From the NCBI GenBank assembly GCA_028343435.1, contig JAOLYM010000004.1:1-64000 (forward strand): DNA of 64,000 nucleotides, read 5' to 3'. Within the stretch, counting starts at the first letter, position 1, and every line of letters begins with the position of its first letter. A program made the position numbers and the translations under genes. The DNA comes from Candidatus Nitrosopelagicus sp. GTDB taxonomy: Archaea > Thermoproteota > Nitrososphaeria > Nitrososphaerales > Nitrosopumilaceae. The notes below the pieces were generated by a model that was not told the DNA's origin, did not search any database, and was given only the letters and a program-made list of their open reading frames with translations. Below, in pieces: positions 26,355-60,207 of this stretch.

Positions 26355-28511
26355 ATGAGTAAGTTAATTATTATTATTTTTACATTTTCAATAATTTTAT
26401 TTTTATCTATAGGCATTGATATTCCAAATGTGAATGCTCAATCAGTCCCAGATTGGGTAAAAAATACAGCGGGATGGTGGGCAACAGATGCAATTTCTGA
26501 AAATGAATTTGTTAATGCGATTGAGTATTTGGTAAAGGCAGGAATAATTCAAGTTGAAAATTATCCGAATTATGAAAATATTCCTGATTGGCTGAAAAAT
26601 AATCCATCATGGGTAGAAGCAAGAAATTCTACAAATACTAGCTTTGAAAATTTTGATATTTCATATTTAAAACAAGAACTTAATGTGTGTGAAGATTGTA
26701 CTATTTCAATTAATCAACATGGGTTTAGAGGTACAGAATTTTTTAAAGAAAAGTCTAATGATGTATACAGAATATTTGCAGTAGGAGGTTCAACAACTCA
26801 CGGAGCAACTTTAGTAAATGATAATGAAACGTGGCCTGCATTTTTACAACAAATTGTTGATGAAAAAATAATTGATAACAAAATCCAAATAATTAATGTT
26901 GGAATAATGGCTGCAACTACTGAAAGTGAACTTGTAATGATTTCTGAAAAAATTGTAAAGTTTAATCCTAATATGATAATAATGTATGATGGTTGGAATG
27001 ATTCTTACAATCTTCCTTTAGAACACTCAATTGATAATTGGAAATCTATATGTAAATTAGGAAATGACCAAAATTTTGAAACAATTATAATTATTCAACC
27101 AATTCTTGGTAGTGGAAATAGAATTTTAACTGAACAAGAAATTACACTTTTTAATAGTTCTAAAGATAAAAATATTCAAAATTTAGAAATGTTAGAAAAA
27201 TATTCATCTAGTTTGAATGAGTTAGATAAACATTGTACAAAAACTGCAAATTTTAAAAATATTTTTGATTATATTTTTTCACCAATTTTTGTAGATTCGG
27301 GTCACACTTCTACTCTTGGGAATAAAATTATCGCAGAGAATGTATTTAATTTACTAGAGAATATTTTGATGGATAATGAACAATCAAACTCATTACAAAA
27401 AATAAATTATTTGAAATATTCATCCATAACTAAAAATGGAATATTTGCTCCTAATGCAGATTTCAGTAATAATAACTTCAGCAATATGATTCTAAAAAAT
27501 TCAATATTTGATATGTCTGATTTATCTTCTGCAAATTTATTGAATGTAGATCTTTCAAACTCACGGTTATATTCTGTAAATCTAGTTAATTCTAATCTAA
27601 TTGGAGCAAATCTTTCAAACTCTAATCTTTCTTATGCTAACCTTTCTGGATTAGATCTTTCTGATACTGATCTTTCTGAAACAATACTAATTGGAGCAAA
27701 TCTTTCAAATACAAAACTTGGAAACATGAATTTTGAAGGGAGAGATTTTGAGCAAACAAAATTAGATTATCAAGATTTTTCATATAGGAATTTATTAAAA
27801 AGTAATTTTAAAAATTCTAGTTTCAATGAATCAAATTTACAAAATACTAACCTTTCAAAATCTATTTTTATCGATGTAGATTTAACAAAAATTACAAATA
27901 AAAGTTTGAAAGATACAGATATTACAGAAACAGTATTTTCCTATTCAAATTTATCAAACATAAAATTTCCAACAGAATTTAAATTTCCAACTTTTTATCG
28001 TGCAAACTTAAATGATTCAGATTTTTCAAATTCTTCCTCTATTGGAACTATTTTCTTTGGAACTCAATTACAAAATGCAAATTTTGAGAACTCAAATTTT
28101 TCAATAATTCAAGAAACAAAAACTTTTGAAAATGCACTAGAATTAACGCAGGAGGAAATAAGAAACAAAATTAGTATTCATCCAATTGTTATGCTTACTA
28201 AATTAACACCTGATGGAAATAATCTCCATGTAGAATATTTGATTTACAATTATTTTATGAATGCAAATTTAGAAAATGCAAATATGAAGAATACAAATTT
28301 TATATTTACTGATTTTACTAATGCAAATTTAAGAAATGTAGATCTTTCAAATTCTAATCTTAATTCAGTTTTTTTTAAAGATGCTAATTTAGAAGGTGCT
28401 AATTTAGAAGGTGCTAATTTAGAAGGTGCTAATTTAGAAGGTGCTAATTTAGAGGGTGCTAATTTGAAAAATGCAGTATTAAATTGTATTAGCCATGAAA
28501 TTTGTAACTGA
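26355..28511 (+). CDS. Secreted SGNH-hydrolase-like protein with C-terminal pentapeptide repeats
   Basis: Signal peptide; WVKNTAGWWATDAISENEFVNAIEYLVKAGII segment; SGNH blocks VGGSTTHG and DSGHTSTLGN; A(N/D)LXX repeats. Confidence 0.8.
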   Translation: MSKLIIIIFTFSIILFLSIGIDIPNVNAQSVPDWVKNTAGWWATDAISENEFVNAIEYLVKAGIIQVENYPNYENIPDWLKNNPSWVEARNSTNTSFENFDISYLKQELNVCEDCTISINQHGFRGTEFFKEKSNDVYRIFAVGGSTTHGATLVNDNETWPAFLQQIVDEKIIDNKIQIINVGIMAATTESELVMISEKIVKFNPNMIIMYDGWNDSYNLPLEHSIDNWKSICKLGNDQNFETIIIIQPILGSGNRILTEQEITLFNSSKDKNIQNLEMLEKYSSSLNELDKHCTKTANFKNIFDYIFSPIFVDSGHTSTLGNKIIAENVFNLLENILMDNEQSNSLQKINYLKYSSITKNGIFAPNADFSNNNFSNMILKNSIFDMSDLSSANLLNVDLSNSRLYSVNLVNSNLIGANLSNSNLSYANLSGLDLSDTDLSETILIGANLSNTKLGNMNFEGRDFEQTKLDYQDFSYRNLLKSNFKNSSFNESNLQNTNLSKSIFIDVDLTKITNKSLKDTDITETVFSYSNLSNIKFPTEFKFPTFYRANLNDSDFSNSSSIGTIFFGTQLQNANFENSNFSIIQETKTFENALELTQEEIRNKISIHPIVMLTKLTPDGNNLHVEYLIYNYFMNANLENANMKNTNFIFTDFTNANLRNVDLSNSNLNSVFFKDANLEGANLEGANLEGANLEGANLEGANLKNAVLNCISHEICN
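28383..28457 (+). repeat. Five tandem 15-nt units (GCTAATTTAGAAGGT, fifth with one A-to-G change) encoding ANLEG
   Basis: Directly visible. Confidence 0.97.
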
Positions 28512-28520
28512 TTTTTGATA

Positions 28521-29288
28521 TTATTCTAAAATTTTAACCAAATTTTTACCAGGTAAAATTTTTACATCATCTTGTGATATCAGGAATTGTAGAATTTTCT
28601 CATACATTCTACCACCTTTCATTTTTAAAACATTATCGTGCCAAATAACGCTGATGACATTCACATCTGAAAAATTTCTGCCGATCTCTATCGTTTTTTT
28701 AAATTCTGGAATGATTCCTTCTTCTTTAATTCCCATATGTGTAAACAAATATGCATCCATCAATGTAACGGGAAATTCAATCAACCCATCAATTTTTGAA
28801 TATCCCATCTCTTTTTCATCAATTTTATCTTTCGAATGTCTAAGAGATCCGTCATACAAGAATCCTAATTCATTTAATTTTTTTGGTAATTCGGGATTAT
28901 AATTTAAAAAATGAACTCTATTTCCAACAATTGGTTTACGTGTTAGAGATTCTAATTTTTCTTGTTCTTGTTTAATTTTTTCAATATCTTCTACTGATTT
29001 AGGATCTGTGTGCAATCCTATTTCCCAATTACCTTTTTGTAATGTTTGAATATCGTTTTCATAGTCATCCACATTTCCATTTTCATATAATGTTCTAAAG
29101 AAAAATGTTGAACGAATTCCTAGTTTTTCTTCTATTTCCATATATTCTGGAATATTACGATACAATTCTTCCGGCTTGGTATTATCAAAAATTTTTGAAT
29201 CAAATCTATCCTTTCTTGCTTGAACGTGCTCTACGTTAGGACCTTGCCTTCTCCAATCTACATCATGACTGAGAAAAATGTATTGCAT
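28521..29288 (-). CDS. Polysaccharide deacetylase-like protein
   Basis: LSHDVDW, GIRSTFFFRT, WEIGLHTDPKS: NodB-like layout. Confidence 0.65.
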   Translation of the reverse strand: MQYIFLSHDVDWRRQGPNVEHVQARKDRFDSKIFDNTKPEELYRNIPEYMEIEEKLGIRSTFFFRTLYENGNVDDYENDIQTLQKGNWEIGLHTDPKSVEDIEKIKQEQEKLESLTRKPIVGNRVHFLNYNPELPKKLNELGFLYDGSLRHSKDKIDEKEMGYSKIDGLIEFPVTLMDAYLFTHMGIKEEGIIPEFKKTIEIGRNFSDVNVISVIWHDNVLKMKGGRMYEKILQFLISQDDVKILPGKNLVKILE

Positions 29289-29295
29289 TTGAATT

Positions 29296-29958
29296 CTAAA
29301 TTATATTGCCAATTTCAGAACTTGATTGTGGCAATTTTTTTGATGAATTTTCCGCATAAACTTCTTTATCATTAACATCTTTTGTGATTAATGTGCCTGC
29401 ACCAATAATGCATTCTTTTCCAATTTTTACTCTCTGATTAATTGTTGCACTAAGACCAATGAATGAACTATCTCCAATTGTTATATGACCACCTAGCGTA
29501 ATGTTGGAAGTTAGAAAACAATTATTCTCAATCACAGTGTTGTGACTAATCAGATTATTACTTCCTATCAATACATTATCTCCAATTTTTACAAATGGTT
29601 GAATAATATTCTCTGCAAGAATGAAACAATTTTCTCCCATTTCAAATTCATCCCAAATTTTGGTTGATGGGTGAATAAAACTATACAGTTCGTAACCCTT
29701 ACTTTTGGCTTCATCAAAAAATTTTGTACGTTTCTTATTCATTTCTGAATAAGCCAAAGCAATAAACATCAAAAATTCACCTGGAGGATATTTTTCATTG
29801 ATATCCTCAAATGCTATTACAGGTAATCCAAGTAATTCATTAGACTCTATACTTGATCTATTTGCAGAAAATGCTACAACTTCATCCTTACTATCTTTAA
29901 GATAATAAAAAATTCTTTGAGCAAGTTCTCCAGTCCCAAATATTACAATTTTTTGCAT
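29296..29958 (-). CDS. NeuD/PglD-like sugar O/N-acetyltransferase (left-handed beta helix)
   Basis: N-terminal VIFGTGELAQRIFYYLK; hexapeptide repeats ILAENIIQPFVKIGDNVLIGSNNLISHNTVIENN. Confidence 0.85.
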   Translation of the reverse strand: MQKIVIFGTGELAQRIFYYLKDSKDEVVAFSANRSSIESNELLGLPVIAFEDINEKYPPGEFLMFIALAYSEMNKKRTKFFDEAKSKGYELYSFIHPSTKIWDEFEMGENCFILAENIIQPFVKIGDNVLIGSNNLISHNTVIENNCFLTSNITLGGHITIGDSSFIGLSATINQRVKIGKECIIGAGTLITKDVNDKEVYAENSSKKLPQSSSEIGNII

Positions 29959-37232: not shown

Positions 37233-38612
37233 GTGATATCAATGTCAAAAATGAAAATTAATATGAATAATCATGATGAAGTTTTAAAGGCATTAGAGTC
37301 ACGTGCACTGCGCGTCTGTGTTATAGGTATCGGAAGAATTGGTCTTCCTACAGCACTATCTTTTGCAAAATCTGGTTTGGAGACAATTGGTGTTGATATT
37401 AATAAAATTCTTGTTGATAACATCAATTTAGGAAAATTTCCTTTGAAAGATGAACCTGGATATGATGAAATATTTGATAATGTTATAAAAAATAAAAAAT
37501 TTTCCGCAACTACCAATATTGAAGATGCAGTTTCCAATTCTGATCTAATTCTTCTATCATTGCCAACACCTATGGATGAAAATAATATTCCAGATTATTC
37601 TGCATTAAGAATTGTTGCTTCACAATTATCTGATATACTATCTCCAAATTCATTGGTAATTGTTGAAAGCACAATAGAACCTGGATTTATTGAAGATGAA
37701 ATGGTATCTCTTATATCAAAATCAGGAAGATTAGACGTAGAAAATAATTTCTTTATTGGTGTATGCCCAGAAAATGCTAATCCTGGAGAAATCTTACATG
37801 ATTTTACAAATTTACCAAGATTAGTTGGAGGAATAAATCCTGATATATCAAAAATAATCAAATTAATCTATAATTTTGTTTTTGCAGTTGAACTTGTTGA
37901 AATGCCTAACTGTAAAACTGCAAATGCTGTAAAATTAACAACGAATGTTTTTCGTGATATCAATATTGCTTTTGTTAGTGAACTAGCTCTTATGTTTGAA
38001 AAACTTGGAATTGATACAAATGCAGTTTTAGAAGCTGCCCAGAAAAAATATAATTTTCAAGTTCATTACCCTGGTTCTGGTGTTGGAGGCCCATGTCTTC
38101 CAATTAATTCATATCAATTACTAAATACTGCAAAACGTATAGGTTCTAATCTTAGTATTATTGAATCTGGTAGAAAAATAAATGAAAAAATGCCTGAACA
38201 TGTAATTAATTTAGTTAAGAATGCATTTGATGAAATTCATGAATCTTTAGATAAAAGTCATATATTGATACTTGGAATTTCATACAAACCTAATGTAAAA
38301 GATATTCAATTAACTCCTGCTGAAGAAATTATTAGAAAATTACAAAATAATGGGGCAGTTGTTCATATTTATGATCCATATTTTATTGGAAGCGAAGCTT
38401 TTGATATAAAAATTGAAAATAATATTAAAGATATTATCTCTAAAGTTGATGCAACCATTATTGTAACAGCACACGATGAATTCAAAAAATTAGATATTTT
38501 GTTATTCAAAGAAATGAAACATCCTATACTCATAGACACAAGAGGAATTATTGATCCTGTTATTGCTAAACACCGGCAATTAGTTTTTAGAGGATTGGGA
38601 CGTGGAATTTAA
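37233..38612 (+). CDS. Nucleotide sugar dehydrogenase (UDP-ManNAc dehydrogenase-like)
   Basis: VCVIGIGRIGLPTALSFA, GSGVGGPCLPINSYQLL, GISYKPNVKDIQLTPA. Confidence 0.88.
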   Translation: MISMSKMKINMNNHDEVLKALESRALRVCVIGIGRIGLPTALSFAKSGLETIGVDINKILVDNINLGKFPLKDEPGYDEIFDNVIKNKKFSATTNIEDAVSNSDLILLSLPTPMDENNIPDYSALRIVASQLSDILSPNSLVIVESTIEPGFIEDEMVSLISKSGRLDVENNFFIGVCPENANPGEILHDFTNLPRLVGGINPDISKIIKLIYNFVFAVELVEMPNCKTANAVKLTTNVFRDINIAFVSELALMFEKLGIDTNAVLEAAQKKYNFQVHYPGSGVGGPCLPINSYQLLNTAKRIGSNLSIIESGRKINEKMPEHVINLVKNAFDEIHESLDKSHILILGISYKPNVKDIQLTPAEEIIRKLQNNGAVVHIYDPYFIGSEAFDIKIENNIKDIISKVDATIIVTAHDEFKKLDILLFKEMKHPILIDTRGIIDPVIAKHRQLVFRGLGRGI

Positions 38613-39804
38613 CACTTCGTCAATTACCGATATCTTAACACTTCGTTATGATCCTTCATTAACTCCTAATTTACCAAAAAAATCATGGAATGATTTCATA
38701 ACAAATAATGAAAGTCCAAATTTGGATTCTATTGAAAATCTAATTTCTAAAAATATAAAACAAAATCTAGAAAACTTTAAGATAAAAAAATTATGTATTG
38801 CGCTTAGCGGTGGTGTTGATTCAACTTTAATTCTTGCATCAATTAGAAAAATTTTTCCAGATTTAGAGATTGAAGCTATTTCTATAAAATTTGCAAATAG
38901 TGTCGATGAAACTACCACTGCGGCTAAAATTGCTGAAACATTTCAAGCTAATCATCATATCATTGAATTAGAAAATTATCTCTCTGAACTTCCAAATGCA
39001 ATTTCTAAAGTTCAATTACCTTTCTGGGATCTTCATTGGTATTATGTAACAAAAAAATCATCTACTATTTCCAACATGCTTGCGTCGGGTGATGGTGGAG
39101 ATGAAATTTTTTCTGGATATACCTTCAGATATAAAAAATTTCTTTCCTTAACAAATTCAAATTCAAGTCCTACTGAAAAAGTCAAAGCTTACTTGTCATG
39201 TCATGAAAGAGATCGTGTTGATGATCAGGAATTAATTTTTCAAAATAAATCAAATTTTTCTTGGAATTCAATATATGATCACCTATTACCCTATTTTGAT
39301 AATTCATTATCTGGATTAGAACAGGTTTTCCTTGCTGATTACAATGGAAAATTACTATACAATTTCAATCCAATCAATTCCAGAATTGCAGAAAAATTCA
39401 ACACACAAATTTTAACACCACTTCTTAATGAAGAGCTAATTTCATATGGATTAAAACTCCCGACAAAATTCAAATATGATGCATCTAGAAATATTGGAAA
39501 ATTACCTTTACGTTCACTTCTTGATAGATATCATGCATCTTCATTAATTTCTAAAGAAAAACTTGGATTCAATGTTAATACTATTAATTTATGGAACACT
39601 TATGGACACAAAATTTGTAAAGAATTTTTTGATAATTCTAGAATTGTAAAAGATGGTTGGATTAATGGTGAATGGATTAAAAAACATATTGATAATGCAT
39701 CTTTACCTATCAATTACATCAATAAATTTCTTGGATTACTTGCATTTGAAATTTGGTATAGAATATTTGTTACAAAAGAAATGAATGAAAATACAAAATT
39801 ATAA
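38602..39804 (+). CDS. Asparagine synthetase-like amidotransferase domain (no N-terminal glutaminase domain)
   Basis: PP-loop LCIALSGGVDSTLILASI, ASGDGGDEIFSGYTFRY; GTG start overlapping the preceding dehydrogenase by 11 nt. Confidence 0.85.
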   Translation: MEFNTSSITDILTLRYDPSLTPNLPKKSWNDFITNNESPNLDSIENLISKNIKQNLENFKIKKLCIALSGGVDSTLILASIRKIFPDLEIEAISIKFANSVDETTTAAKIAETFQANHHIIELENYLSELPNAISKVQLPFWDLHWYYVTKKSSTISNMLASGDGGDEIFSGYTFRYKKFLSLTNSNSSPTEKVKAYLSCHERDRVDDQELIFQNKSNFSWNSIYDHLLPYFDNSLSGLEQVFLADYNGKLLYNFNPINSRIAEKFNTQILTPLLNEELISYGLKLPTKFKYDASRNIGKLPLRSLLDRYHASSLISKEKLGFNVNTINLWNTYGHKICKEFFDNSRIVKDGWINGEWIKKHIDNASLPINYINKFLGLLAFEIWYRIFVTKEMNENTKL

Positions 39805-40137
39805 TTTTTCTTTATTGGATATGACAATTGCTATTGCATAATCTCCATCATGTGACATTGATACTTTAAACTTAAACCCTTTTGTAGAAATTTTTACATT
39901 AGGTTTATCATTTTCATAGTATGTTGTAATATCTGATAATTTTATTTTTTCCTCTATTGATTTCATAGTTGCCTCTTTTATTGCAAATTTACCGGCAAAA
40001 TGTTTGTATGGTTCATTAAATTTTAAACAATATTTAATTTCGTTATTAGAAAAATTTTTTTCATAAAAAGATTTATTCTTATAATAAGGAATTTTTTCAA
40101 ATCTACTTGTTTGAACAAGATCAATTCCTACATTCAT
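39799..40137 (-). CDS. acpS: Holo-[acyl-carrier-protein] synthase
   Basis: GIDLVQTSRFEKI, FAGKFAIKEATMKSI, VSMSHDGDYAIAIVI. Confidence 0.88.
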   Translation of the reverse strand: MNVGIDLVQTSRFEKIPYYKNKSFYEKNFSNNEIKYCLKFNEPYKHFAGKFAIKEATMKSIEEKIKLSDITTYYENDKPNVKISTKGFKFKVSMSHDGDYAIAIVISNKEKL

Positions 40138-40541
40138 TTCTTTTTTTCAGCTAATTCAATTAAATTACAATTTGTATTTTTCATATTTAGTAAAATAAAT
40201 GAAATTAATCTTCCTTCAAATCCTTCTATTGGCTCAACAATCACTCTTCCACCATTATCTTTCATTTTTTTTGTCTCTTTAACTATGTCATCAACTTCGA
40301 AACATAGATGGTGAAAACCTCCTCCTGATTCAGAAATTTTTTTAACTGGAGAATTGTTTCCTACAGGTTCAATTAATTCAATATAGATGTCGGATGTTTT
40401 CAAAAAACACACATTAACTTTTTGAGATTCCACTAACATCGGAATAGATGTTTTTTCAAATTTCAAATATCTAGATAATTCTCCAAGAGATGTTTGAATA
40501 TTGTTTACAATAATTCCTATATGATGTAGTTTCATTTTCAA
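40134..40541 (-). CDS. VOC/glyoxalase-fold protein (methylmalonyl-CoA epimerase-like)
   Basis: LHHIGIIVNNIQTSL, IYIELIEPVGNNSPVKKI, GGGFHHLCFEVDDI. Confidence 0.85.
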   Translation of the reverse strand: MKMKLHHIGIIVNNIQTSLGELSRYLKFEKTSIPMLVESQKVNVCFLKTSDIYIELIEPVGNNSPVKKISESGGGFHHLCFEVDDIVKETKKMKDNGGRVIVEPIEGFEGRLISFILLNMKNTNCNLIELAEKKK

Positions 40542-40771
40542 ACATCAATCCCATGTTTTTTCAAAATTTCTTTAAAATCTTCAACTTTTTTAATTTCTAG
40601 TGTTTCATCAAGATCAAACTTTATATTAAATTCATTTTCAAGTTCATCCAATAACACATAAAAATTAAAAGAATCCCATTCTTCTAAATTTTCAGGACTA
40701 GTTTCATCATTGATTTTACTACTTTCAACATTGAATACTTTTGATATAATTTGATATAATTTTTCATTCAT
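40538..40771 (-). CDS. Acyl carrier protein
   Basis: 77 aa; LEEWDSFNFYVLLDELENEFNI with the phosphopantetheine Ser in DSF; overlaps neighbours on both sides. Confidence 0.88.
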   Translation of the reverse strand: MNEKLYQIISKVFNVESSKINDETSPENLEEWDSFNFYVLLDELENEFNIKFDLDETLEIKKVEDFKEILKKHGIDV

Positions 40772-42518
40772 TTTTTATCACCTTGATATGTTCTGGTTTA
40801 TTTATTGTATTATCCGTATTAAAAACCCAAAAATCTTCTTCTAAAGAAAAACCGAAATTCTCATAAAAATTCTTAGCTGGTTTATTTTTTTGAGTTGGAA
40901 TAAATTTTCCTTTTATTATCTTCACATTTTGTTTTCTAGCTTTTTCAATAATTTCGCTCAACATACTATCTTCAATGCCACGCCCAATTATTCTACAACT
41001 TAGTAGAAATGTGTCAATTATCCATTCATTCTCTTTTTTTTCAACAATATATGCGCCTGTAATTCCATTATCTCCAAACTTATCCTTAACCTCTGCACAT
41101 TCAACAATTTTATTTTCATCTTTTGAAAATAATTCTATTTCATTTTCTTTGTAACGTTTTGTCGTTAAATTAAATTGATTAGTTTTTAATGTTAATTGAG
41201 AAATTCTTGAAATTGAAAAATTATCTGCCTTCTTAATTTTAATTTCTATATCCATTTTTTTAAGAAATTCATTAAAATCTCCAACTTCATTTTTAAATTC
41301 ATTTCTTTCTTGTTGTTGTGAATACATATCCCTTCGTTTCAGATCTTCATCTGTAATTTTTATTAATTCAAAAACATTCAATTCAGTGAGAATTTTTGGA
41401 TATATTGATGAATCAGTAGGTAAATCAACAACTAAGATATCACTTAGCTGATTTTTTACAAACTCTCGATTAATTTGATCATCATCAAAAAATACTAAAC
41501 TATCAATTCCTATATTCAATTCTTTTGAAATCTCACGTAAATTACTTACTTTATCATTCCAATTAATTTTGATAGAGCTAAAATTTTCTCTTCGCAAGAT
41601 CATGTTTGGATGTTCGTTAATTACTTTAATTGCATCGTCAAAATTATTTTTACTATTTATAGCTAAAATTATCCCTCTTTGATTTAATGCTAATAATCTT
41701 TTTTGAAATTCTACAAATGATCTTCCTATTGGATCATCCCCTAATTTTATTTTATCAAAACCATCTTCTCCAATGACGCCACCCCATAATGTATTATCTA
41801 AATCTAAAACAATACATTTTTTTGTAGAACCTGTTATGGCATTTACAAATTTCATTAGTTCATCAATAAATTTTGGAATAAATTCAATTGATATTTTCAT
41901 ATCTCCAGAAAAATATTGTTTATAATTAAAAATATTTTCTTCGCCATATTTCTGAATAAATTCATTAAAATCTAATATGGATACTAAATCCTCATTTTTA
42001 ATTTCTAATTTTATTTTTTCATTAATATTTTTTACAATTTGTTTTAGACCAAATTCTTGCTTTTGTTCATTTATTCCATATGGTGAATACGTTGGAATTT
42101 GTAAATCTGAAAAAATAACATGTGATTTTGAATGATTTATTATAGTTTTGATTAAATTAGTTATTTCTCTAACCTTATTTTTGACAAATTCTTTTTTTTC
42201 TAATTCCGATAATGAATATGGAGTAAAAAATATTTCACCTAGAACATGTCTGACATCTAGAATTAAAAATGTGATATCTGGTTTAAATTCATAAAATTTT
42301 GAATCCTTTTTTAAAATTTCTTGATTATATTGATTATAATTTGAATTGTATGTCCTACATGCAATTTTTTTTTGATGGCATTTTACACGAATTGTTTCCT
42401 CATAACCATTTATTGTGGAACTTCCTAAAATCGCAATACGTATTTTCTTTTCAAAATTATCTGTTTTGATATTTTTTGCCTCATTCAAAAAATATGACAA
42501 ATTTTCATTTTTCCCCAA
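40764..42518 (-). CDS. FkbH-like HAD-IIIC family protein
   Basis: CIVLDLDNTLWGGVIGEDG, LLALNQRGIILAINSKNN, SLVFFDDDQINREFVKNQLSDILVVDLP; C-terminal GNAT-like region. Confidence 0.92.
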   Translation of the reverse strand: MGKNENLSYFLNEAKNIKTDNFEKKIRIAILGSSTINGYEETIRVKCHQKKIACRTYNSNYNQYNQEILKKDSKFYEFKPDITFLILDVRHVLGEIFFTPYSLSELEKKEFVKNKVREITNLIKTIINHSKSHVIFSDLQIPTYSPYGINEQKQEFGLKQIVKNINEKIKLEIKNEDLVSILDFNEFIQKYGEENIFNYKQYFSGDMKISIEFIPKFIDELMKFVNAITGSTKKCIVLDLDNTLWGGVIGEDGFDKIKLGDDPIGRSFVEFQKRLLALNQRGIILAINSKNNFDDAIKVINEHPNMILRRENFSSIKINWNDKVSNLREISKELNIGIDSLVFFDDDQINREFVKNQLSDILVVDLPTDSSIYPKILTELNVFELIKITDEDLKRRDMYSQQQERNEFKNEVGDFNEFLKKMDIEIKIKKADNFSISRISQLTLKTNQFNLTTKRYKENEIELFSKDENKIVECAEVKDKFGDNGITGAYIVEKKENEWIIDTFLLSCRIIGRGIEDSMLSEIIEKARKQNVKIIKGKFIPTQKNKPAKNFYENFGFSLEEDFWVFNTDNTINKPEHIKVIKNE

Positions 42519-42598: not shown

Positions 42599-43501
42599 TT
42601 GAAAATGAGCATGACTGAAAAAATTCTTGTTATAGGGGGAAGTGGATTATTAGGTTATTATTTAAAACAGAATTTAACTGACGCTGATGTATATTCCACC
42701 TATAAACAAAATAAATTAGATTTTAAAAAAGCAAATTTTCTTGATATAACTAATAAGAATAATTTAGAAAAAATATTTGAAAAAATTAAACCAAATGTTA
42801 TTTTTCATACTGCAGCAATAACGGATCTAGATTGGTGTGAAAAACATGAAAAGGAAACATATGCACTAAATACTAATCCAATTAAAAATATTACCAATTT
42901 GGCAAAGAGATATAATTCAAAATTAATTTTTATATCAACCGATTCTGTTTTTGATGGAAAGTTAGGTGGTTATCAAGAAACTGATCCTCTAAATTCAATT
43001 AATGTTTACAGTAAATCAAAAATTGAAGCTGAAAAAATTATAAAAACACTTGATAATTCATTAATTGTTCGAGGGACCTTTTTTGGAATTAAAAATAATA
43101 AAGAATCATTTATTTCATATTTATTAAAACAATTAAAAAATAATAAAGAAATTAATGTTCCTAAAGACAAAATTAGTAATGGATTATTTGTAAATGATTT
43201 TGCAAAAATTTTGGTAGAAATGCACTATAAGAAACTCTCAGGGGTATTTCATATCGGTAGTTCTGATTATGTAAATAATTTTGAATTTGCAAAAAAAATT
43301 GCTAATGTTTTTGGATATGAAAAAGATTTAATCCATGAAACTTTATTTAGAGAGATTTTTCATGAAAAAAACCTAATTGCAAAACGTCCATTAAATACGA
43401 CATTAAATACAAAAAAAATATCTGCCCTAATTAAAATGCCCAATTTTAAAGATGTAATAAATTCATTTTATGAAAATACTAATTTACGTTCAATCCTTTG
43501 A
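42599..43501 (+). CDS. dTDP-4-dehydrorhamnose reductase-like SDR
   Basis: ILVIGGSGLLGYYL, NVIFHTAAITDLDWCE, FISTDSVFDGKLGGYQETDPLNSINVYSKSKIEAE. Confidence 0.9.
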   Translation: MKMSMTEKILVIGGSGLLGYYLKQNLTDADVYSTYKQNKLDFKKANFLDITNKNNLEKIFEKIKPNVIFHTAAITDLDWCEKHEKETYALNTNPIKNITNLAKRYNSKLIFISTDSVFDGKLGGYQETDPLNSINVYSKSKIEAEKIIKTLDNSLIVRGTFFGIKNNKESFISYLLKQLKNNKEINVPKDKISNGLFVNDFAKILVEMHYKKLSGVFHIGSSDYVNNFEFAKKIANVFGYEKDLIHETLFREIFHEKNLIAKRPLNTTLNTKKISALIKMPNFKDVINSFYENTNLRSIL

Positions 43502-43610: not shown

Positions 43611-44156
43611 GTGAGTCATTACAAAGAACTAACTGAAAATGCCTTTAAAATCAATGAGCAAGAATTAATGAAATATCATGGATATTCTGGATTGGGTGGA
43701 AAAATTAAACTTCGTTTTAATTATGTACGTTCATGGATACACCATTCATTGGCATTCTCATCAACACATTCTGGATTTGCAATTAAAATGCAAAAACTAA
43801 GAGGAGTAAAAATTGGAAAAAACTGCCATTTCAATCCATATGTATTGATTGATCTAATTTATCCTGAACTTATTTCAATTGGAGATAATGTAACATTGGG
43901 ATCTTACTCTATGCTGTTTGCTCATAGTAATCCTACTGCCAATTTATTTTTAAAAAAAGGAGAATATCCACGTAAAGTCGCTGAAATTAACATAAAATCT
44001 GGTGCTGTAATTAATCCTGGCGCAATAATTACTTCTGGTGTTACTATTGGAGAAAATTCTATAATATCTCCAGGAAGTGTTGTCACTCAAGATGTTCCAG
44101 ATTATTGTGTTGTGGTTGGGAATCCTGCTAGAATAGTAAAAAAAATTAATCATTAG
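43611..44156 (+). CDS. Hexapeptide-repeat acyltransferase
   Basis: IGKNCHFNPYVLIDLIYPELISIGDNVTLGS...GVTIGENSIISPGSVVTQDVPDYCVVVGNPARIVKKI; GTG start. Confidence 0.88.
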   Translation: MSHYKELTENAFKINEQELMKYHGYSGLGGKIKLRFNYVRSWIHHSLAFSSTHSGFAIKMQKLRGVKIGKNCHFNPYVLIDLIYPELISIGDNVTLGSYSMLFAHSNPTANLFLKKGEYPRKVAEINIKSGAVINPGAIITSGVTIGENSIISPGSVVTQDVPDYCVVVGNPARIVKKINH

Positions 44157-44999
44157 TTGATGAATTTGAATTTATTAGGTATTGATTTTGAGGATTGGTA
44201 TCATCCACAGCTTGTACAACCATTTGTTAAACATCTAAAACATGAATCAAAAATGTTTCAAGGTTTGGATAAAATCATAGAGTTATTAAGAAAAACTGAA
44301 ACTACTGCAACATTTTTCATGGTTGGAGAATTACTTGAATCGCATCCTTCTATGCTTGATAAAATACTTGAAAATGGACATGAAATTAGTTTTCATACAC
44401 TAAATCATTCAAATCTCAATAATTCAACCAAAGAAAAATTCCTTGACGAATTAGATATTTTTAGAAAACTCACAAATGGTCGATCAAATGGATTTCGTGC
44501 TCCAACATTTTCTATAAATTCCAATACATCTTGGGCTATTGATGCATTAATTGAAAAAAATTATGTTTATGATAGTAGTATTATGCCAACTAAAACACAA
44601 CTCTATGGATTTAACAATTGTGAATTAGGACCATATAAAATATCAAATTCATCTCTAACTAAAAATGATCCAAATGGCAAATTACTTGAATTTCCATTGA
44701 TGATTGGAAAATTTTTAGGAAAAACATTACCTGTATCAGGGGGATTTTATCTACGTTTTTTGCCTTTACAAACATCATTATCTGCAATTAAAAAATATGA
44801 AAGAAAAAATTTACCATCTTCCATTTATGTCCATTCTTGGGAATTAACTCCTGAATTCATGCCAAAAATTTTATTACCATTGAAAGAAAAATTTGTTACG
44901 TATCATAACATACAAAAAACTTATTCAAGATTAGAACAAATTATTACAAAGTATAAATTCACATCATTTGAAAAATTCATTAAAAATTCTAGCTTTTAG
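44157..44999 (+). CDS. Polysaccharide deacetylase (DUF3473-like)
   Basis: LLGIDFEDWYHPQL, TATFFMVGELLESHPSML, HEISFHTLNHSNL, GFRAPTFSI. Confidence 0.88.
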   Translation: MMNLNLLGIDFEDWYHPQLVQPFVKHLKHESKMFQGLDKIIELLRKTETTATFFMVGELLESHPSMLDKILENGHEISFHTLNHSNLNNSTKEKFLDELDIFRKLTNGRSNGFRAPTFSINSNTSWAIDALIEKNYVYDSSIMPTKTQLYGFNNCELGPYKISNSSLTKNDPNGKLLEFPLMIGKFLGKTLPVSGGFYLRFLPLQTSLSAIKKYERKNLPSSIYVHSWELTPEFMPKILLPLKEKFVTYHNIQKTYSRLEQIITKYKFTSFEKFIKNSSF

Positions 45000-48127: not shown

Positions 48128-48631
48128 ATGCGTAAAAATATTGGTTTTCGCTCTTGGTTTTACTTTAGAACTGGATGGTCCATGTATTTTGCATTTGTTC
48201 TTTCAGCAGTAAATACATTGACTGTAACCTATTATCTTGCTGTTGAAAAAGTTCCATTTTTAGTTGAAATTTTTCCAACATTTTTGCACTATGTTCTAAT
48301 CTTTGTTGCAATTGGTGTTCCTATACTTGTAACAACAGGATATGCTCATTTTAAGAGGACATCCGCAAGAAAAGCTGAAGTTGATATTTCTGTAGAAACA
48401 AATCCATATATGATTAGAACCCTTGTAAATTCCGAATATATCCTAAAATTAAATTTAATTTTATCAAATACTTTGTTAAAAATACAAAATAACCAAAAAC
48501 TCTCTGAAACAGAAATTAAAGAAATTTCAAGTATTCAAACTGAATTAAATTCTTTCATGAAAGATAGAAATGTCAGTAAAGAAAGAGATTTGGAGTTTTT
48601 CCGAAAAATGGTTGGATCAAATATTAAATAG
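48128..48631 (+). CDS. Hypothetical membrane protein (two TM segments)
   Basis: Hydrophobic segments MYFAFVLSAVNTLTVTYYLAV and FLHYVLIFVAIGVPILVTTGYA. Confidence 0.7.
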   Translation: MRKNIGFRSWFYFRTGWSMYFAFVLSAVNTLTVTYYLAVEKVPFLVEIFPTFLHYVLIFVAIGVPILVTTGYAHFKRTSARKAEVDISVETNPYMIRTLVNSEYILKLNLILSNTLLKIQNNQKLSETEIKEISSIQTELNSFMKDRNVSKERDLEFFRKMVGSNIK

Positions 48632-50300
48632 AATTCAAAATATATTTATCAAAAATCTTATTTATTGCACGTTGTGAATAGCCTAAGCTTTCCGTAATTG
48701 GCTCTAATGAGTTTTGAAATTTATGTTCCAATATCAAATAGGTTATGTCATCTGAAATAATGCCCTCGATGTTTGTATCGACCAGTTTTGTATTTTTTAT
48801 TGTGCTTCCAGTTAGATCTGCATTAGATAAATTTACACCTCTAAGATCAGTTCCTTCAAGATTTGCATTCTTAAAATTATTTGATGAAAGATCTGCTAAA
48901 TAAAAATATGCACCAAAAAGATTTGCATTCATAAAATTAGTTCCATCAAATAAATCTTCATTATTCATTGAACCTCTGAATGGATTTTTAAAATTAGCAA
49001 ATTGTAAATTTGCATCTTCAAAATTAGCAAATTGTAAATTTGCATCTTCAAAATTAGCACCAGAAAGATTTGCATTCTTAAAATTTGTGTTTTTAAGATT
49101 TGCATCTTTAAAATTTGCACCAAAAAGTTGCGAATTCTCAAAATTAGCATATGCAATTTCTGCATTATTGAAATCAACTCCTGAAAGATCTAAGTTGGAA
49201 AGATCCAAATTAGATAGGTCTGCAGAATCAAAATTTGCATGATAAAGTATTGTATTTTTTAATATGGTGTTTCTAAATTGTGAATTTTCTAATTCGGCTC
49301 CTGTCATTTTAGCAGAGGATAAGTTTGCATCATTAAAATTAACATTATTTAATATTGCATAGTAAAAATTTGCTCCACTCAAATTTGAATTAGAAAAATC
49401 AACTCCCGTAAGATCTGAATATGAAAAATCAACTCCTGTAAGATCCTTATTGCTCAAATTTTCATATTTGAACTCTTCATTTCTTACAGTTCCTACCCCT
49501 AGATACTCGATAAATTCACTTCTTGTATCCTCAAAATTTGTATTTTCTGTCTGTGCGTCGGTTAAATCAATTCCATATATGTTTGAATTTGATAAATTTG
49601 CATTTTTTAAATTTGTGTTTGTTAAATTAGCATCTGTTAGATCTGCACCAATTAATATTGCATTTTCCAAATTAGCATTATACAGATTTGCATTACGAAA
49701 ATTTGCACCAGTTAAATCGGCACCAGTTAAATCAACACCTGATAAATTAGCATCTCTTAGATCTGCACCAATTAATATTGCATCTTTTAGATCTGCATAT
49801 AGTAAATTAGCTTTATGTAAATCTGCTCCTCTTAAGTTTGCTCCAACAAAAACTTTTCCTACTAATTCTTGTCCACAGAAATTTGTTCTTGTAAGATTTG
49901 CACCCTCAAAATTTGCATCTTGTATGTTTGTTTTATACAACCTTGCATGTTCAAGTATACTGTTACTAAGATCCGCACCAGCTAAATTAGATTCAGCCAA
50001 ATCTGCTCCAGATAAATTTGCACCACTGAAATCAGCATTTCGTAAATCTGTTAGTCTAAAATTTGCACCAAAAATTTTAGATTTTTGGAAATCTGCTCCA
50101 GATAAGTCTGTTCCAGAAAAATCTGTTCCAGATAAATCTATATTTTGATAATTAGAATTTGATAAATCCTCGATAATCAATGAATCTAATTTACTAATTG
50201 GTAGATCATTGTTTGGTGTAAATAATATTCCTAAACTAAGAATTGAAATTGATATTACAATTCCAATAATACTCAAAAATACCTTCATAATTTTTTTCAT
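48624..50300 (-). CDS. Membrane-anchored/secreted pentapeptide-repeat protein
   Basis: N-terminal TM, then long A(D/N)LXX series (GADLRDANLSGVDLTGADLTGANFRNANLYNANL...). Confidence 0.92.
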   Translation of the reverse strand: MKKIMKVFLSIIGIVISISILSLGILFTPNNDLPISKLDSLIIEDLSNSNYQNIDLSGTDFSGTDLSGADFQKSKIFGANFRLTDLRNADFSGANLSGADLAESNLAGADLSNSILEHARLYKTNIQDANFEGANLTRTNFCGQELVGKVFVGANLRGADLHKANLLYADLKDAILIGADLRDANLSGVDLTGADLTGANFRNANLYNANLENAILIGADLTDANLTNTNLKNANLSNSNIYGIDLTDAQTENTNFEDTRSEFIEYLGVGTVRNEEFKYENLSNKDLTGVDFSYSDLTGVDFSNSNLSGANFYYAILNNVNFNDANLSSAKMTGAELENSQFRNTILKNTILYHANFDSADLSNLDLSNLDLSGVDFNNAEIAYANFENSQLFGANFKDANLKNTNFKNANLSGANFEDANLQFANFEDANLQFANFKNPFRGSMNNEDLFDGTNFMNANLFGAYFYLADLSSNNFKNANLEGTDLRGVNLSNADLTGSTIKNTKLVDTNIEGIISDDITYLILEHKFQNSLEPITESLGYSQRAINKIFDKYILNSI

Positions 50301-52993: not shown

Positions 52994-53932
52994 TTAATCA
53001 AAATTATTTATTTTTTCTAAGAGACTAATAATGTCCTTTTTTTCAACATGTTTTGGGTTATTCATTAAATGTTTAGAATCTTTTAAGATTATATTTGCAG
53101 CATCTTCTAAGTTTTGTTTTAATATAATTTTATCAAATTTTAGTTTATTTACAATATGATTAAATCTATCAGTAAATTTTGATGAATTAAATTCATGTGC
53201 CACACGTGTTGTAAATGCTAATGCATGACCATGACTATATCCTTCATTAGAATAAACATATGATAATGCATGTCCTAAAGTGGTTGAACAATTACCAAAA
53301 CCTAAACCTGTGATTAATGATCCCATCGGTAACTTTTCATATTTTTCATTTAATATGCCATCTTCCAAAATTTCAAACGCCTTCTGACATAGGAATCTGG
53401 TATATTCATTTCCATTTTTACTGTCATATCCTTCAGAACATTGTGCACACGCATCTATAGCTGAATTTTTGAGAATATCTTGGGGCGTATTTTTAATAAA
53501 ATATGGATCAACAATTGCAACATCTGCAAACATTTTGTCATCATGGAAACTTGTTTTTTTTCCATTTACTGTTAAAACAGAAATTCTTGTCACCTCACTT
53601 CCACTCCCAAATGTAGTTGGAATTAAAATTTTTTTCTTTTGTAATTTGTGTGCAACAAATTTTGCAACATCTAAAGAACTTCCACCTCCTAATCCTATAA
53701 TATAATCAATATCTTTATTTTTAAAATCTGAAATAATCTTTTCAGCTGTATCTGATGATGGATTGGGTTCAACATCATCAAAATATATCTGATTTTCTAA
53801 ATTTGTATAATTTAACCATCCTCTTGAAATTGCTCCTTTTGAGGTAATTACTAATGATTTATTGGGATATTTGAAATCTTTTGCAGAATCTATTCCAAAT
53901 TTTATACAATTTGGCTGTTTGATAATATTCAT
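52994..53932 (-). CDS. Iron-containing alcohol dehydrogenase (candidate phosphonoacetaldehyde reductase)
   Basis: YIIGLGGGSSLDVAKFVAHKL, PTTFGSGSEVT, LGHALSYVYSNEGYSHGHALA; divergent from pepM. Confidence 0.8.
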   Translation of the reverse strand: MNIIKQPNCIKFGIDSAKDFKYPNKSLVITSKGAISRGWLNYTNLENQIYFDDVEPNPSSDTAEKIISDFKNKDIDYIIGLGGGSSLDVAKFVAHKLQKKKILIPTTFGSGSEVTRISVLTVNGKKTSFHDDKMFADVAIVDPYFIKNTPQDILKNSAIDACAQCSEGYDSKNGNEYTRFLCQKAFEILEDGILNEKYEKLPMGSLITGLGFGNCSTTLGHALSYVYSNEGYSHGHALAFTTRVAHEFNSSKFTDRFNHIVNKLKFDKIILKQNLEDAANIILKDSKHLMNNPKHVEKKDIISLLEKINNFD

Positions 53933-53983
53933 ACATTATAATTGATGGGATGTTTTTTATAACTTACAATTACCATTTTCTTA

Positions 53984-54880
53984 ATGATTCAATCTGAAAA
54001 TTTAGTAAATTTGTTAGAAAAAAAACCAATTGTAAAAGTTTGTGGTGCCTATGACGCCATGTCTGCAAAATTAGTTGAAGCGCATGGGTTTGATGCAATA
54101 TGGGCTGGAAGTTTTGCAATTTCGGCGATTCATAATGTACCTGATGCTAGTATCTTAACTATGACTGAATTTTTTGATGCAGCCTCTAACATGGCTCAAT
54201 CTTGTGAAATTCCTGTTATTGCAGACTGTGATACTGGTTATGGTGATGCAAATAATGTCAGACATTTAGTAAAAAAATATGAAAATGCTGGAATTGCTGG
54301 AATATGTATTGAGGATAAGACATTTCCTAAACAAAATAGCTTGTTAAAAGATGGAAATAATCAATTATTATCAGAAAAGGATTTTGTTGCAAAAATACTT
54401 GCAGCTAATGACGTAAAACAAAATAAAGCATTCTCAATTATTGCTCGTGTAGAAGCATTAATTTCAGGAATAGGGATGGATGAAGCTCTAAAAAGAGCAT
54501 ATGCATATGAAAAAGCAGGAGCAGATCTAATTTTAATTCACTCAAAAAAAATCTCACCTGAAGAAATTTTTGAATTTTCTGAATCATGGAAAGGAAGCTC
54601 ACCTTTAGTTGTTATACCTACAACATATTATTCTGTAAAAATTGATGAATTAATTTCACGTAATATCAAAATGGTGATTTATGCTAATCAAACATTGAGA
54701 GCTGCTCATTTGGCACTAAATAATCTACTTAGCAAAATGAAAGATGCTAACAATATGGATGAAATACAAAATGAAATGTCACCAATGGATGATATTTTTA
54801 AATTACAAGAAATGTTTGAGATTAAGTCACAAGAAAAAGATATCGAAGAGAAGTTAAGAAAATTAGGTTATATCTCTTGA
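53984..54880 (+). CDS. pepM: Phosphoenolpyruvate mutase
   Basis: EDKTFPKQNS (EDKxxxxxNS motif), VKVCGAYDAMSAKLVEAHGFDAIWAG, ADCDTGYGDANNV. Confidence 0.93.
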   Translation: MIQSENLVNLLEKKPIVKVCGAYDAMSAKLVEAHGFDAIWAGSFAISAIHNVPDASILTMTEFFDAASNMAQSCEIPVIADCDTGYGDANNVRHLVKKYENAGIAGICIEDKTFPKQNSLLKDGNNQLLSEKDFVAKILAANDVKQNKAFSIIARVEALISGIGMDEALKRAYAYEKAGADLILIHSKKISPEEIFEFSESWKGSSPLVVIPTTYYSVKIDELISRNIKMVIYANQTLRAAHLALNNLLSKMKDANNMDEIQNEMSPMDDIFKLQEMFEIKSQEKDIEEKLRKLGYIS

Positions 54881-55365
54881 CAAATTCGTTTCAAATTAAA
54901 ATCTTTGATTATCTTCAAAAACATAATATTCAAAATTTTATTGGAGTTCCTGACTCGACTCTTAAAGAATTTATATCCTATGGATTAAAAAATAAAAAAA
55001 TTATTGTTACTACTAGGGAAGAAGAGGCAATTGGTATTGCAACTGGAATGTGTTTGTCTGGAAGTGATTCTTTAGTTTTTATGCAAAATGCTGGATTTGC
55101 AAATTCACTTAGTACGATAACATCGCTTGTTAAATTATATAAAATCCCTATGATTTTTTTAATTGGTTGGAGAGGATATCTTAAAGATGATGCTCCTGAA
55201 CATCTTCAAATTGGAAAAATTCAACCTGAATTAATTAAAATTATTGAATTACCCTCAAAAACTCTTTCAGAAAATAATTGGAAAAAAAATTGTGATTGGG
55301 CTATCAAAAAAATTAAAAATAATTCTCCATGTGCACTAATTGTAAAGAGGGAATTTCATGATTAG
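54877..55365 (+). CDS. ppd: Phosphonopyruvate decarboxylase, N-terminal (alpha) subunit
   Basis: FIGVPDSTLKEF...TTREEEAIGIATGMCLSGSDSLVFMQNAGFANSLSTITSL; TTG start overlapping pepM stop. Confidence 0.88.
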   Translation: MTNSFQIKIFDYLQKHNIQNFIGVPDSTLKEFISYGLKNKKIIVTTREEEAIGIATGMCLSGSDSLVFMQNAGFANSLSTITSLVKLYKIPMIFLIGWRGYLKDDAPEHLQIGKIQPELIKIIELPSKTLSENNWKKNCDWAIKKIKNNSPCALIVKREFHD

Positions 55366-55918
55366 AAAAGAAGCAATGAAGATAATATTAGATCAAATTG
55401 CTTTATCACCAATTATATCTGCAAATGGATTCATGAGTAGAGATTTATTTGAACTAAAAGAAAAAATTTCTAATTTCTATATGATAGGTTCTATGGGATT
55501 GGCATCTTCAATTGGACTTGGTGTTGCATTAAAAAACCCTAGAAAAAAAATTTATGTTTTTGATGGTGATGGAAATATTTTGATGAACTTAGGTTCATTA
55601 GTCACAACTGGATATTTGTGCCCTAAGAACCTAATTCATATTATTTTTGATAATAATAGTCATGAATCTACTGGTGGTCAACCTACTGCATCAAATGAAA
55701 TAGAATTATCTAAGTTTGGTCAAGTCTGTAATTACAAAGTATTTACTATAACAGACAAAACTTCTCTAAAAAATTGTTTCAAAAAAATTAAAAAAATTAA
55801 CCAATCTGTAATGATTGTAATAAAAATTTCAAAAAGTGATGTTAGAAGTCATCGTGTATCATTAAAACCTGAATTTATTAAAAAAAGATTTATGAATTCA
55901 CTCAAATTAAAAAAATGA
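55358..55918 (+). CDS. ppd: Phosphonopyruvate decarboxylase, C-terminal (TPP-binding) subunit
   Basis: GSMGLASSIGLGVAL, VFDGDGNILMNLGSLVTTG, IIFDNNSHESTGGQPT. Confidence 0.88.
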   Translation: MIRKEAMKIILDQIALSPIISANGFMSRDLFELKEKISNFYMIGSMGLASSIGLGVALKNPRKKIYVFDGDGNILMNLGSLVTTGYLCPKNLIHIIFDNNSHESTGGQPTASNEIELSKFGQVCNYKVFTITDKTSLKNCFKKIKKINQSVMIVIKISKSDVRSHRVSLKPEFIKKRFMNSLKLKK

Positions 55919-56664
55919 AAGCAATTATCATCGCAGCAGGAATTGGTTCGCGATTAGGTGATTTAACAAAAGATTTACCTAAACCTTTGATTGATGTTAA
56001 TGGTAAATCTATTCTTGAAAGACAAATTGAACTTTTTAAAAAATTTGGAATTAATGAAATATTTATTATAACTGGTTACAAAAATGATAAAATTAAATTT
56101 AGTGATATCAATTGTGTTTATAATTCTGAATATCAACAAACAGAACAAATTGGAAGTTTAATGAAGGCAAGAAATGAAATATCTGGAGATGTAATAATTT
56201 CATTTGGGGATATTTTATTTGAAGAAAAAATTTTAGAAGAATTACTTGAAAATAAAGATGATTTTGTTTTGGTGAGTGATCCAAATTGGAAAAAATCATA
56301 TGAATCAAGACCTGATAATCCTCCTACGCAATCTGATTTCATTGCATTGAAAAATAATAAAATAATAAAATTTTTCAAAAATTCTTTAGAAATTGATAAT
56401 TCTTATTCTGTAGTTGAATTTATTGGATTAATGAAAATGTCTACCACGTCGTCTAATATTTTCTTACAGAAATATAATAATTTAGAAAAGTCTCATACTG
56501 GAAAGTTTCATTTTGCATCTAGTTTTATGAATGCAAAATTTATTGATTTTTTTGAAGAACTACGACTATCTGGAATTCAGATGTATACATTGAATGTTAA
56601 CGGTAAATGGTGTGAAATTGATACTATTCAAGATTTGGAAATTGCTAAAAAATTATTCATTTGA
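55915..56664 (+). CDS. Sugar-phosphate/phosphonate nucleotidyltransferase (NTP_transferase family), copy 1
   Basis: MKAIIIAAGIGSRLGDLTKDLPKPLIDVNGKSILERQIELFKKFG; C-terminal GKWCEIDTIQDLEIAKKLF. Confidence 0.88.
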   Translation: MKAIIIAAGIGSRLGDLTKDLPKPLIDVNGKSILERQIELFKKFGINEIFIITGYKNDKIKFSDINCVYNSEYQQTEQIGSLMKARNEISGDVIISFGDILFEEKILEELLENKDDFVLVSDPNWKKSYESRPDNPPTQSDFIALKNNKIIKFFKNSLEIDNSYSVVEFIGLMKMSTTSSNIFLQKYNNLEKSHTGKFHFASSFMNAKFIDFFEELRLSGIQMYTLNVNGKWCEIDTIQDLEIAKKLFI

Positions 56665-59451: not shown

Positions 59452-60207
59452 ATGAAAGCAATTATAGTTGCAGCAGGAATTGGTTCGCGATTAGGTGATT
59501 TAACAAAAGATTTACCTAAACCTTTGATTGATGTTAATGGTAAATCTATTCTTGAAAGACAAATTGAACTTTTTAAAAAATTTGGTATTGATGATATAAT
59601 TATCATTCGAGGTCCTCATAAAAATAAATTTAATTTTGAACAAGTTACATATGTTGATGATGTTGATACTGCTAAACATGATCTATTAGGTTCACTAATG
59701 ACTGCAAAAAAAGAAATGTTTGATGATATAATAATTTCTTATGGAGATATAATTTTTGATGAAAATATATTATCTCAACTTTTTAATTCCACTGAAGATA
59801 CAAGTCTTGCAATTGATTATAATTGGGAAAAAAATTATAATAATAAATCTAATGATCTATTAAACAAGGTTTCAGTTGTAACTTTGGAAAATAACTTTAT
59901 TACTAATATTGGATATTATGAAAATTTTAAAACTTATGAAAATGTAGTTTTTGGTGAATTTATTGGACTCATGAAATTATCTAAATCATCTGCATTGAAT
60001 TTTATACAAAAATATAATATTCTTCAAGAAAATCATGTTGGTAAATTTCATGATTCACCGTCAATACATTTTGGTATTATAACTGATATGATTAATGAAT
60101 TACTAAAAGATGGAATAAAATTCACATCGACTAAAATATCTGGAAAATGGTGTGAAATTGATACTCCAAAAGATTTAGAACTTGCCAAAAAATTATTTAT
60201 AATTTAA
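59452..60207 (+). CDS. Sugar-phosphate/phosphonate nucleotidyltransferase (NTP_transferase family), copy 2
   Basis: Nearly identical N terminus to 55915..56664; GKWCEIDTPKDLELAKKLF. Confidence 0.88.
   Translation: MKAIIVAAGIGSRLGDLTKDLPKPLIDVNGKSILERQIELFKKFGIDDIIIIRGPHKNKFNFEQVTYVDDVDTAKHDLLGSLMTAKKEMFDDIIISYGDIIFDENILSQLFNSTEDTSLAIDYNWEKNYNNKSNDLLNKVSVVTLENNFITNIGYYENFKTYENVVFGEFIGLMKLSKSSALNFIQKYNILQENHVGKFHDSPSIHFGIITDMINELLKDGIKFTSTKISGKWCEIDTPKDLELAKKLFII

Follow-up and report, generated by a model that had tools for sequence, protein, structure and literature searches.

FkbH-type enzymes of bacterial polyketide pathways load a glyceryl unit from 1,3-bisphosphoglycerate onto an acyl carrier protein (ACP). 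To our knowledge, archaea do not use ACPs for membrane lipids, and they generally lack ACP-dependent fatty acid synthesis. Here we describe a 64,000-nucleotide stretch of DNA (the window), situated on a 75-kb contig of a Nitrosopumilaceae archaeon, in which genes encoding an FkbH-type protein, an ACP, a VOC protein and a holo-ACP synthase (AcpS) form a compact cassette. The host assembly comprises 849 kb and is 66% complete; named relatives of the host are marine group I thaumarchaeota, Candidatus Nitrosopelagicus and Candidatus Nitrosopumilus. We hold with moderate confidence that the cassette serves the carrier-protein-dependent acylation of surface glycans: glyceryl-ACP made from 1,3-bisphosphoglycerate would be adjusted at its alpha-carbon and moved to an amino sugar.

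FkbH domains have been described as shown to load unusual units onto ACPs (PMC4552970). The bacterial glyceryl-loading FkbH/ACP pairs of methoxymalonyl-ACP and tetronate formation (for example Mad7/Mad8 and Mad14/Mad12; PMC7489565) resemble the window in that FkbH lies beside a stand-alone ACP. Unlike these pairs, the archaeal module has no ketosynthase, no oxidation to hydroxymalonyl and no polyketide synthase (PKS), and it is distinguished by its archaeal host, its own AcpS and its glycan acyltransferase and deacetylase partners. A second parallel is provided by Campylobacter, whose locus, we presume, also contains FkbH-like and ACP genes. The pseudaminic acid of Campylobacter flagellin includes a glyceric-acid derivative (PMC3068675), and in the proposed archaeal product a surface sugar would likewise carry a glyceric-acid group.

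Two further systems show related logic. LpxA and LpxD, which transfer acyl groups from acyl-ACP to UDP-sugars, share with the acyltransferase of the window a left-handed beta-helix and the proposed acyl-ACP donor, but the window enzyme is of a short, acetyltransferase-like form and its acyl group is proposed to be a C3 hydroxyacid rather than a long chain. The Dlt system (DltA ligase, DltC carrier, DltB MBOAT transferase) likewise combines a carrier, a loader and a transferase; in the window, FkbH stands in place of DltA and a hexapeptide enzyme in place of DltB. An MBOAT relative located near an archaeal ACP gene scored 151 bits against the DltB model (cut-off 375).

The four-gene cassette

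The four open reading frames that an earlier inspection of the DNA (the sequence-only reading) had named as FkbH, ACP, VOC and AcpS were all recovered at the same coordinates on the minus strand (Table 1). Consecutive genes overlap by 8, 4 and 4 bp.

Table 1. Features of the cassette and of the adjoining genes (positions in the window; aa, amino acids)
Feature	Coordinates	Strand	Remarks
FkbH-type HAD-IIIC protein	40764-42518	-	584 aa; FkbH_N domain, HAD domain (DLDNTLWGG), C-terminal acyltransferase-like region with LSCR cysteine
Acyl carrier protein	40538-40771	-	77 aa; attachment serine S34 in EEWDSF
VOC protein, proposed alpha-carbon enzyme on the ACP-bound acyl group	40134-40541	-	135 aa
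Holo-ACP synthase, AcpS type	39799-40137	-	112 aa
Left-handed beta-helix (hexapeptide) acyltransferase, proposed acceptor-side transferase	43611-44156	+	Hexapep PF00132 51 bits (cut-off 27)
Polysaccharide deacetylase (NodB type, DUF3473), proposed to unmask the amine for acylation	44157-44999	+	Polysacc_deac_1 and DUF3473 above cut-off
RmlD-like sugar reductase	42599-43501	+	RmlD 176 bits; inserted at the divergent point between the two halves
AsnB-like ATP-dependent amidotransferase	38602-39804	+	Asn_synthase domain only (residues 63-387), without glutaminase domain; neighbour, outside the unit
Nucleotide-sugar dehydrogenase	37233-38612	+	TIGR03026 369 bits, above cut-off; partner of the AsnB-like gene, outside the unit

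FkbH matches TIGR01686 with 316 bits (cut-off 146.65) over model positions 2-322 of 323, and FkbH_N with 57.6 bits (cut-off 27). Residues D239 and D241 (the DxD of the HAD nucleophile), S289, D345, D346 and C508 (LSCR) are invariant in all 43 archaeal and bacterial homologues. The protein is thus predicted to be an intact FkbH of the glyceryl-transferase type, its loading of glyceryl from 1,3-bisphosphoglycerate resting on family assignment. The ACP scores 25.1 bits against PF00550 (cut-off 20.8), with S34 invariant in 47/47 relatives. AcpS exceeds the cut-offs of PF01648 (41.7 bits, cut-off 25) and TIGR00556 and falls under that of TIGR00516 (50.4 against 59.8); its D6, E55, K59 and H96 are kept in 48/48 relatives.

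The VOC protein had been described as methylmalonyl-CoA-epimerase-like. It matches Glyoxalase_4 (79 bits, cut-off 27) and reaches only 68 bits against TIGR03081 (cut-off 114.95), so the VOC fold stands, while methylmalonyl-CoA epimerase as its class was rejected. H7, E55, H78 and E129, invariant in 14/14 members, occupy the four places at which a VOC protein is expected to bind its metal (H, E/Q, H, E); their role as metal ligands was assigned by alignment to glyoxalase-like structures and from general knowledge. An AlphaFold model built from only two sequences had a mean pLDDT of 48 and was set aside.

The window copies of the cassette genes show no sign of degeneration. FkbH modules interrupted by stop codons occur in two other genomes, at loci L068 (G116:C52:66516-67497) and L090 (G026:C2:67-936), which suggests that the trait can be lost.

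The module appears self-contained, as had been supposed: the window ACP is the sole PP-binding match, and no second ACP was found, in the 66%-complete host genome. The same search revealed no dedicated ketosynthase, only a single partial match of 23.6 bits in a 376-aa frame that we interpret as thiolase-like (the ketosynthase model also gives matches in all archaeal control genomes). Judged by the ketosynthase search, no type II fatty acid synthase or PKS was found at this level of completeness.

Conserved gene order and glycan-modifying partners

A sample of 250 Nitrosopumilaceae genomes was screened, with FkbH counted when over the family cut-off; 33 of them were positive. Most readable copies share one head-to-head layout: FkbH, ACP, a third gene (position X) and AcpS are transcribed in one direction, and a hexapeptide acyltransferase gene followed by a deacetylase gene in the other. 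The order of the cassette genes is kept in dozens of related genomes and is therefore not due to chance; consistent absence of linkage, which had been named as an outcome that would count against a functional module, was not what this sample revealed.

The acyltransferase is present in 32 of the 33 FkbH genomes versus 12 of the 217 without FkbH (Fisher 2.5e-29), and in 41/47 AcpS genomes versus 3/203 without AcpS (Fisher 6.8e-37), the AcpS counts including four genes found only by reading loci; the genomes are related, so both Fisher values overstate independence. Three genomes have the acyltransferase and no AcpS: in two of them the sequence breaks off at the contig edge next to the acyltransferase, and in the other an AMP-ligase gene adjoins it. 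The catalytic-type H105 of the enzyme is present in 42/42 members. The deacetylase adjoins the acyltransferase in most loci, with H80, H84, R114 and P116 conserved in 36/36. What is observed directly is the gene content, the integrity of the catalytic residues, the conservation of linkage and the co-occurrence. Among candidates for the transfer step the acyltransferase, already proposed as such in the sequence-only reading, is the best supported.

Exchange of the enzyme at position X

Position X is occupied by the VOC gene in the window and its nearest kin. In most other genomes a hydratase of the MaoC type (about 142 aa) takes this place; among proteins of solved structure, R-specific enoyl-CoA hydratases are its best relatives, and its D39 and H44 are intact and do not vary across the alignment. 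Each of the 35 archaeal modules with a readable downstream side has either VOC or MaoC, never both or neither (the VOC frame of L069 is short and may be broken). On an FkbH tree with bacterial sequences included, the VOC label needs five state changes, at least three of them forced by well-supported branches; VOC and MaoC have been exchanged repeatedly.

Additional reductase genes accompany some modules. A FabG-like short-chain dehydrogenase/reductase (SDR) is added in two archaeal modules (L058 and L059). On bacterial plasmids, a MaoC-SDR fusion follows FkbH in L097, and similar SDR genes with MaoC similarity follow it in L094 and L099.

Alternative loaders and relatives outside Nitrosopumilaceae

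FkbH-free genomes with AcpS can carry AcpS divergently from an ACP gene, which is followed by genes for an AMP-forming ligase and the same hexapeptide acyltransferase (L076, L077, L079 and L084); the last two genes are neighbours in L078, L111 and L112 as well. Without FkbH, the acyltransferase can thus be fed through an ACP and an AMP-forming ligase. On the acyltransferase tree, ligase-adjoining members fall into two clusters (2 changes; 0/500 shuffles as low), and such clustering by loader type is expected if donor and transferase evolve together. DltA was not among the best family matches listed for the L079 ligase. A further arrangement, carrier-VOC-ligase-formyltransferase, is found in L088, where the putative carrier has no Pfam match.

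Other archaeal ACP genes were also observed. ACP-ligase operons in L082 (3233-7689) and L083 (7708-12245) are followed by genes for an acyl-protein synthetase and a reductase of the LuxE and LuxC types (family assignment from L082 alone), implying that an ACP-bound acyl group would be reduced. In L086 (7592-14999), whose genome also has an FkbH module, a second ACP, an SDR and an MBOAT protein are encoded a few kilobases from STT3/AglB, the N-glycan oligosaccharyltransferase.

In a wider sample of 398 genomes of the phylum, one other archaeal family (three genera) has FkbH above the cut-off. Its AcpS-FkbH-ACP genes face those for the hexapeptide acyltransferase, deacetylase and VOC protein, the deacetylase being a weak match in L106 and L108 and assigned by position alone in L107. 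The unit directly adjoins STT3/AglB in L106 and L107; L108 is truncated by the contig end.

Plasmids of marine Rhodobacterales carry the same FkbH, ACP and VOC set, in the order ACP-FkbH-MBOAT-x-VOC-hexapeptide acyltransferase in Rhodobacteraceae SC52 and ACP-FkbH-methyltransferase-VOC in Paroceanicella. They differ from the archaeal modules in that no AcpS is listed in the stretch and in the divergence of the proteins (26-31% identity for VOC, 28% for the acyltransferase). The association of VOC with FkbH and ACP is therefore recurrent in both domains. A profile scan of viral contigs revealed four in IMG/VR (L119, L120, L121 and L122) that encode distant FkbH relatives (26-39% identity).

Proposed pathway and competing interpretations

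From these observations we infer the substrate, the identity and stereochemistry of the acyl group, the acceptor and the surface glycan as product along the following route. AcpS would attach phosphopantetheine to S34 of the ACP. The HAD site of FkbH would strip the 3-phosphate of 1,3-bisphosphoglycerate, and the glyceryl group would pass via the LSCR cysteine to the ACP, giving glyceryl-S-ACP. This product is both a 2-hydroxyacyl thioester, the substrate class of glyoxalase-like VOC proteins, and a 3-hydroxyacyl thioester, the class used by MaoC dehydratases. Since it fits both substrate classes, and since both enzyme classes begin by abstracting the alpha-proton of a thioester, the enzyme at position X presumably edits the alpha-carbon. 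The VOC metal enzyme (in sister genomes the MaoC hydratase, sometimes with an SDR reductase) would remove the alpha-proton, with epimerisation at C2 as the most likely outcome for VOC; with MaoC, the 3-hydroxyl would be lost to yield pyruvyl-ACP, which the SDR could reduce to lactyl-ACP. The hexapeptide acyltransferase would finally take the acyl group off the ACP and attach it to a surface sugar, at an amino group that the adjoining deacetylase has probably unmasked; the presence of this partner suggests an amine as the acceptor.

The strongest competitor concerns the final acyl form, which would be lactyl or pyruvyl if VOC and MaoC did the same job, i.e. removal of the alpha-proton and then loss of the 3-hydroxyl. 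The swap of the two genes at one operon position, never together, agrees with such a decoration pathway, as do the proton abstraction that opens both chemistries, the intact Asp39/His44 of a hydratase related to R-specific enzymes, and the SDR of L058 and L059 with the MaoC-SDR fusion of a bacterial FkbH cluster. However, an SDR does not adjoin most MaoC modules or any VOC module, and the exchange may instead mirror different end products. We regard this version as possible, though we incline against it.

According to a second alternative, the hexapeptide enzyme is an ordinary O- or N-acetyltransferase working with acetyl-CoA, and the acyl group of the ACP module is delivered via another enzyme (such as an MBOAT protein or a glycosyltransferase-coupled step). 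Among proteins of solved structure, the best relatives of the enzyme are acetyltransferases, its short form being most like sugar acetyltransferases, and its matches to the LpxA and LpxD models are weak and far below the cut-off; next to an ACP gene, an MBOAT gene is found in L045, in L086 and on the bacterial plasmid L096, and L077 has one in the same operon. Against this, the window module has no MBOAT neighbour, and the near-confinement of the hexapeptide gene to AcpS genomes would be unexpected for an acetyl-CoA enzyme. We judge this explanation unlikely and propose, from the genetic association with ACP, that the enzyme may use an acyl-ACP donor. That the module makes a diffusible polyketide- or tetronate-like metabolite and lies among glycan genes by chance is very improbable: the FkbH pathways found in the literature all serve polyketide or non-ribosomal products, but a PKS role is disfavoured by the ketosynthase and ACP searches of the incomplete host genome, the conserved partners are glycan enzymes, and the unit adjoins STT3/AglB in another archaeal family.

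Besides the relatedness of the sampled genomes, several points weigh against ACP-dependent glycan acylation as proposed here. The functions of all archaeal members, including the substrate of FkbH, are assigned by family. The hexapeptide enzyme could use acetyl-CoA as donor, as do the maltose and galactoside acetyltransferases, which are the best characterised among its relatives, and the MBOAT transferases beside ACPs could be the real partner in those relatives. The RmlD gene of the window, absent from the divergent point in other loci and not a conserved part of the unit, splits the cassette from the acyltransferase/deacetylase half, and in G143 and G173 the acyltransferase lies kilobases away from the carrier genes.

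The surrounding glycan island

The label of surface-glycan island proved apt, as the cassette is surrounded by genes for glycosyltransferases, nucleotide-sugar dehydrogenases, a PseC/LegC-like aminotransferase, sugar acyltransferases and deacetylases, and by a phosphonate cluster. The AsnB-like protein had been named as an alternative transfer step. It is encoded in 76/250 genomes, a set that includes many FkbH-free ones, and where FkbH is present its gene mostly lies kilobases off or on a different contig; neither distribution nor linkage follows the module, and we abandon this assignment. Wherever its surroundings were read, including L053 and L113, the gene adjoins one for a nucleotide-sugar dehydrogenase, and the protein probably amidates a uronic acid.

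The phosphonate-type cluster (52994-56664) comprises genes for an iron-containing alcohol dehydrogenase, a phosphoenolpyruvate (PEP)-mutase-like protein (294 bits, cut-off 320), a phosphonopyruvate decarboxylase divided between two genes, and a nucleotidyltransferase with a second copy at 59452-60207. Downstream lies a gene for a TauD/gamma-butyrobetaine-type dioxygenase with a weak match also to the TmpA phosphonate dioxygenase (61835-62764). Two proteins with long pentapeptide-repeat-like stretches (ANL/ADL repeats) are encoded at the edges of or within the island (26355-28511 and 48624-50300). A different deacetylase paired with a NeuD/PglD-like sugar acyltransferase is found at 28521-29958; in L061 (6333-7796) such a pair adjoins the FkbH module in place of the usual one.

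The GC content of the four-gene module (24.4%) is lower than the island mean (27.3%, in segments of 2.72 kb), but 4 of the 63 segments are equally low, which places it within the tail of the island. The patchy distribution and the bacterial look-alikes are compatible, on limited bacterial sampling, with horizontal acquisition.

Biological meaning

The sequence-only reading was right in outline about an ACP module with an acyltransferase partner but was too narrow and in part misassigned; it did not include the exchange of MaoC and VOC, loading by an AMP-ligase, the deacetylase as a partner or the relatives linked to STT3/AglB. A literature search that left most subscription journals outside its reach retrieved nothing on FkbH in Thaumarchaeota or in O-antigens, and for FkbH with archaea and ACP only natural-product papers. 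The module probably represents an archaeal version of carrier-protein acylation, and this limited search found no description of such a route in archaea.

The probable role of this gene set, in some ammonia-oxidising marine archaea, is to charge a carrier protein with a small C3 acid drawn from central metabolism and to pass that acid to the enzyme responsible for decorating surface sugars. More tentatively, we suggest that Archaea may possess a modular, fatty-acid-independent carrier system for acylating surface or N-linked glycans with short hydroxyacids, having interchangeable loaders (FkbH or AMP-ligase) and tailoring enzymes (VOC or MaoC with or without SDR), its own AcpS, and in VOC a 2-hydroxyacyl-ACP epimerase or dehydratase of a new type.

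That archaeal ACP modules come with an AcpS of their own raises the question of what role ACP plays in Archaea. The VOC/MaoC and FkbH/AMP-ligase swaps around one acyltransferase constitute a natural experiment on the diversification of surface chemistry, and the STT3/AglB-linked relatives point to N-glycans. If the proposed pathway is true, abundant marine ammonia oxidisers would draw off the central intermediate 1,3-bisphosphoglycerate to decorate their surfaces, and this would be relevant to the appearance of the cells to viruses and grazers.

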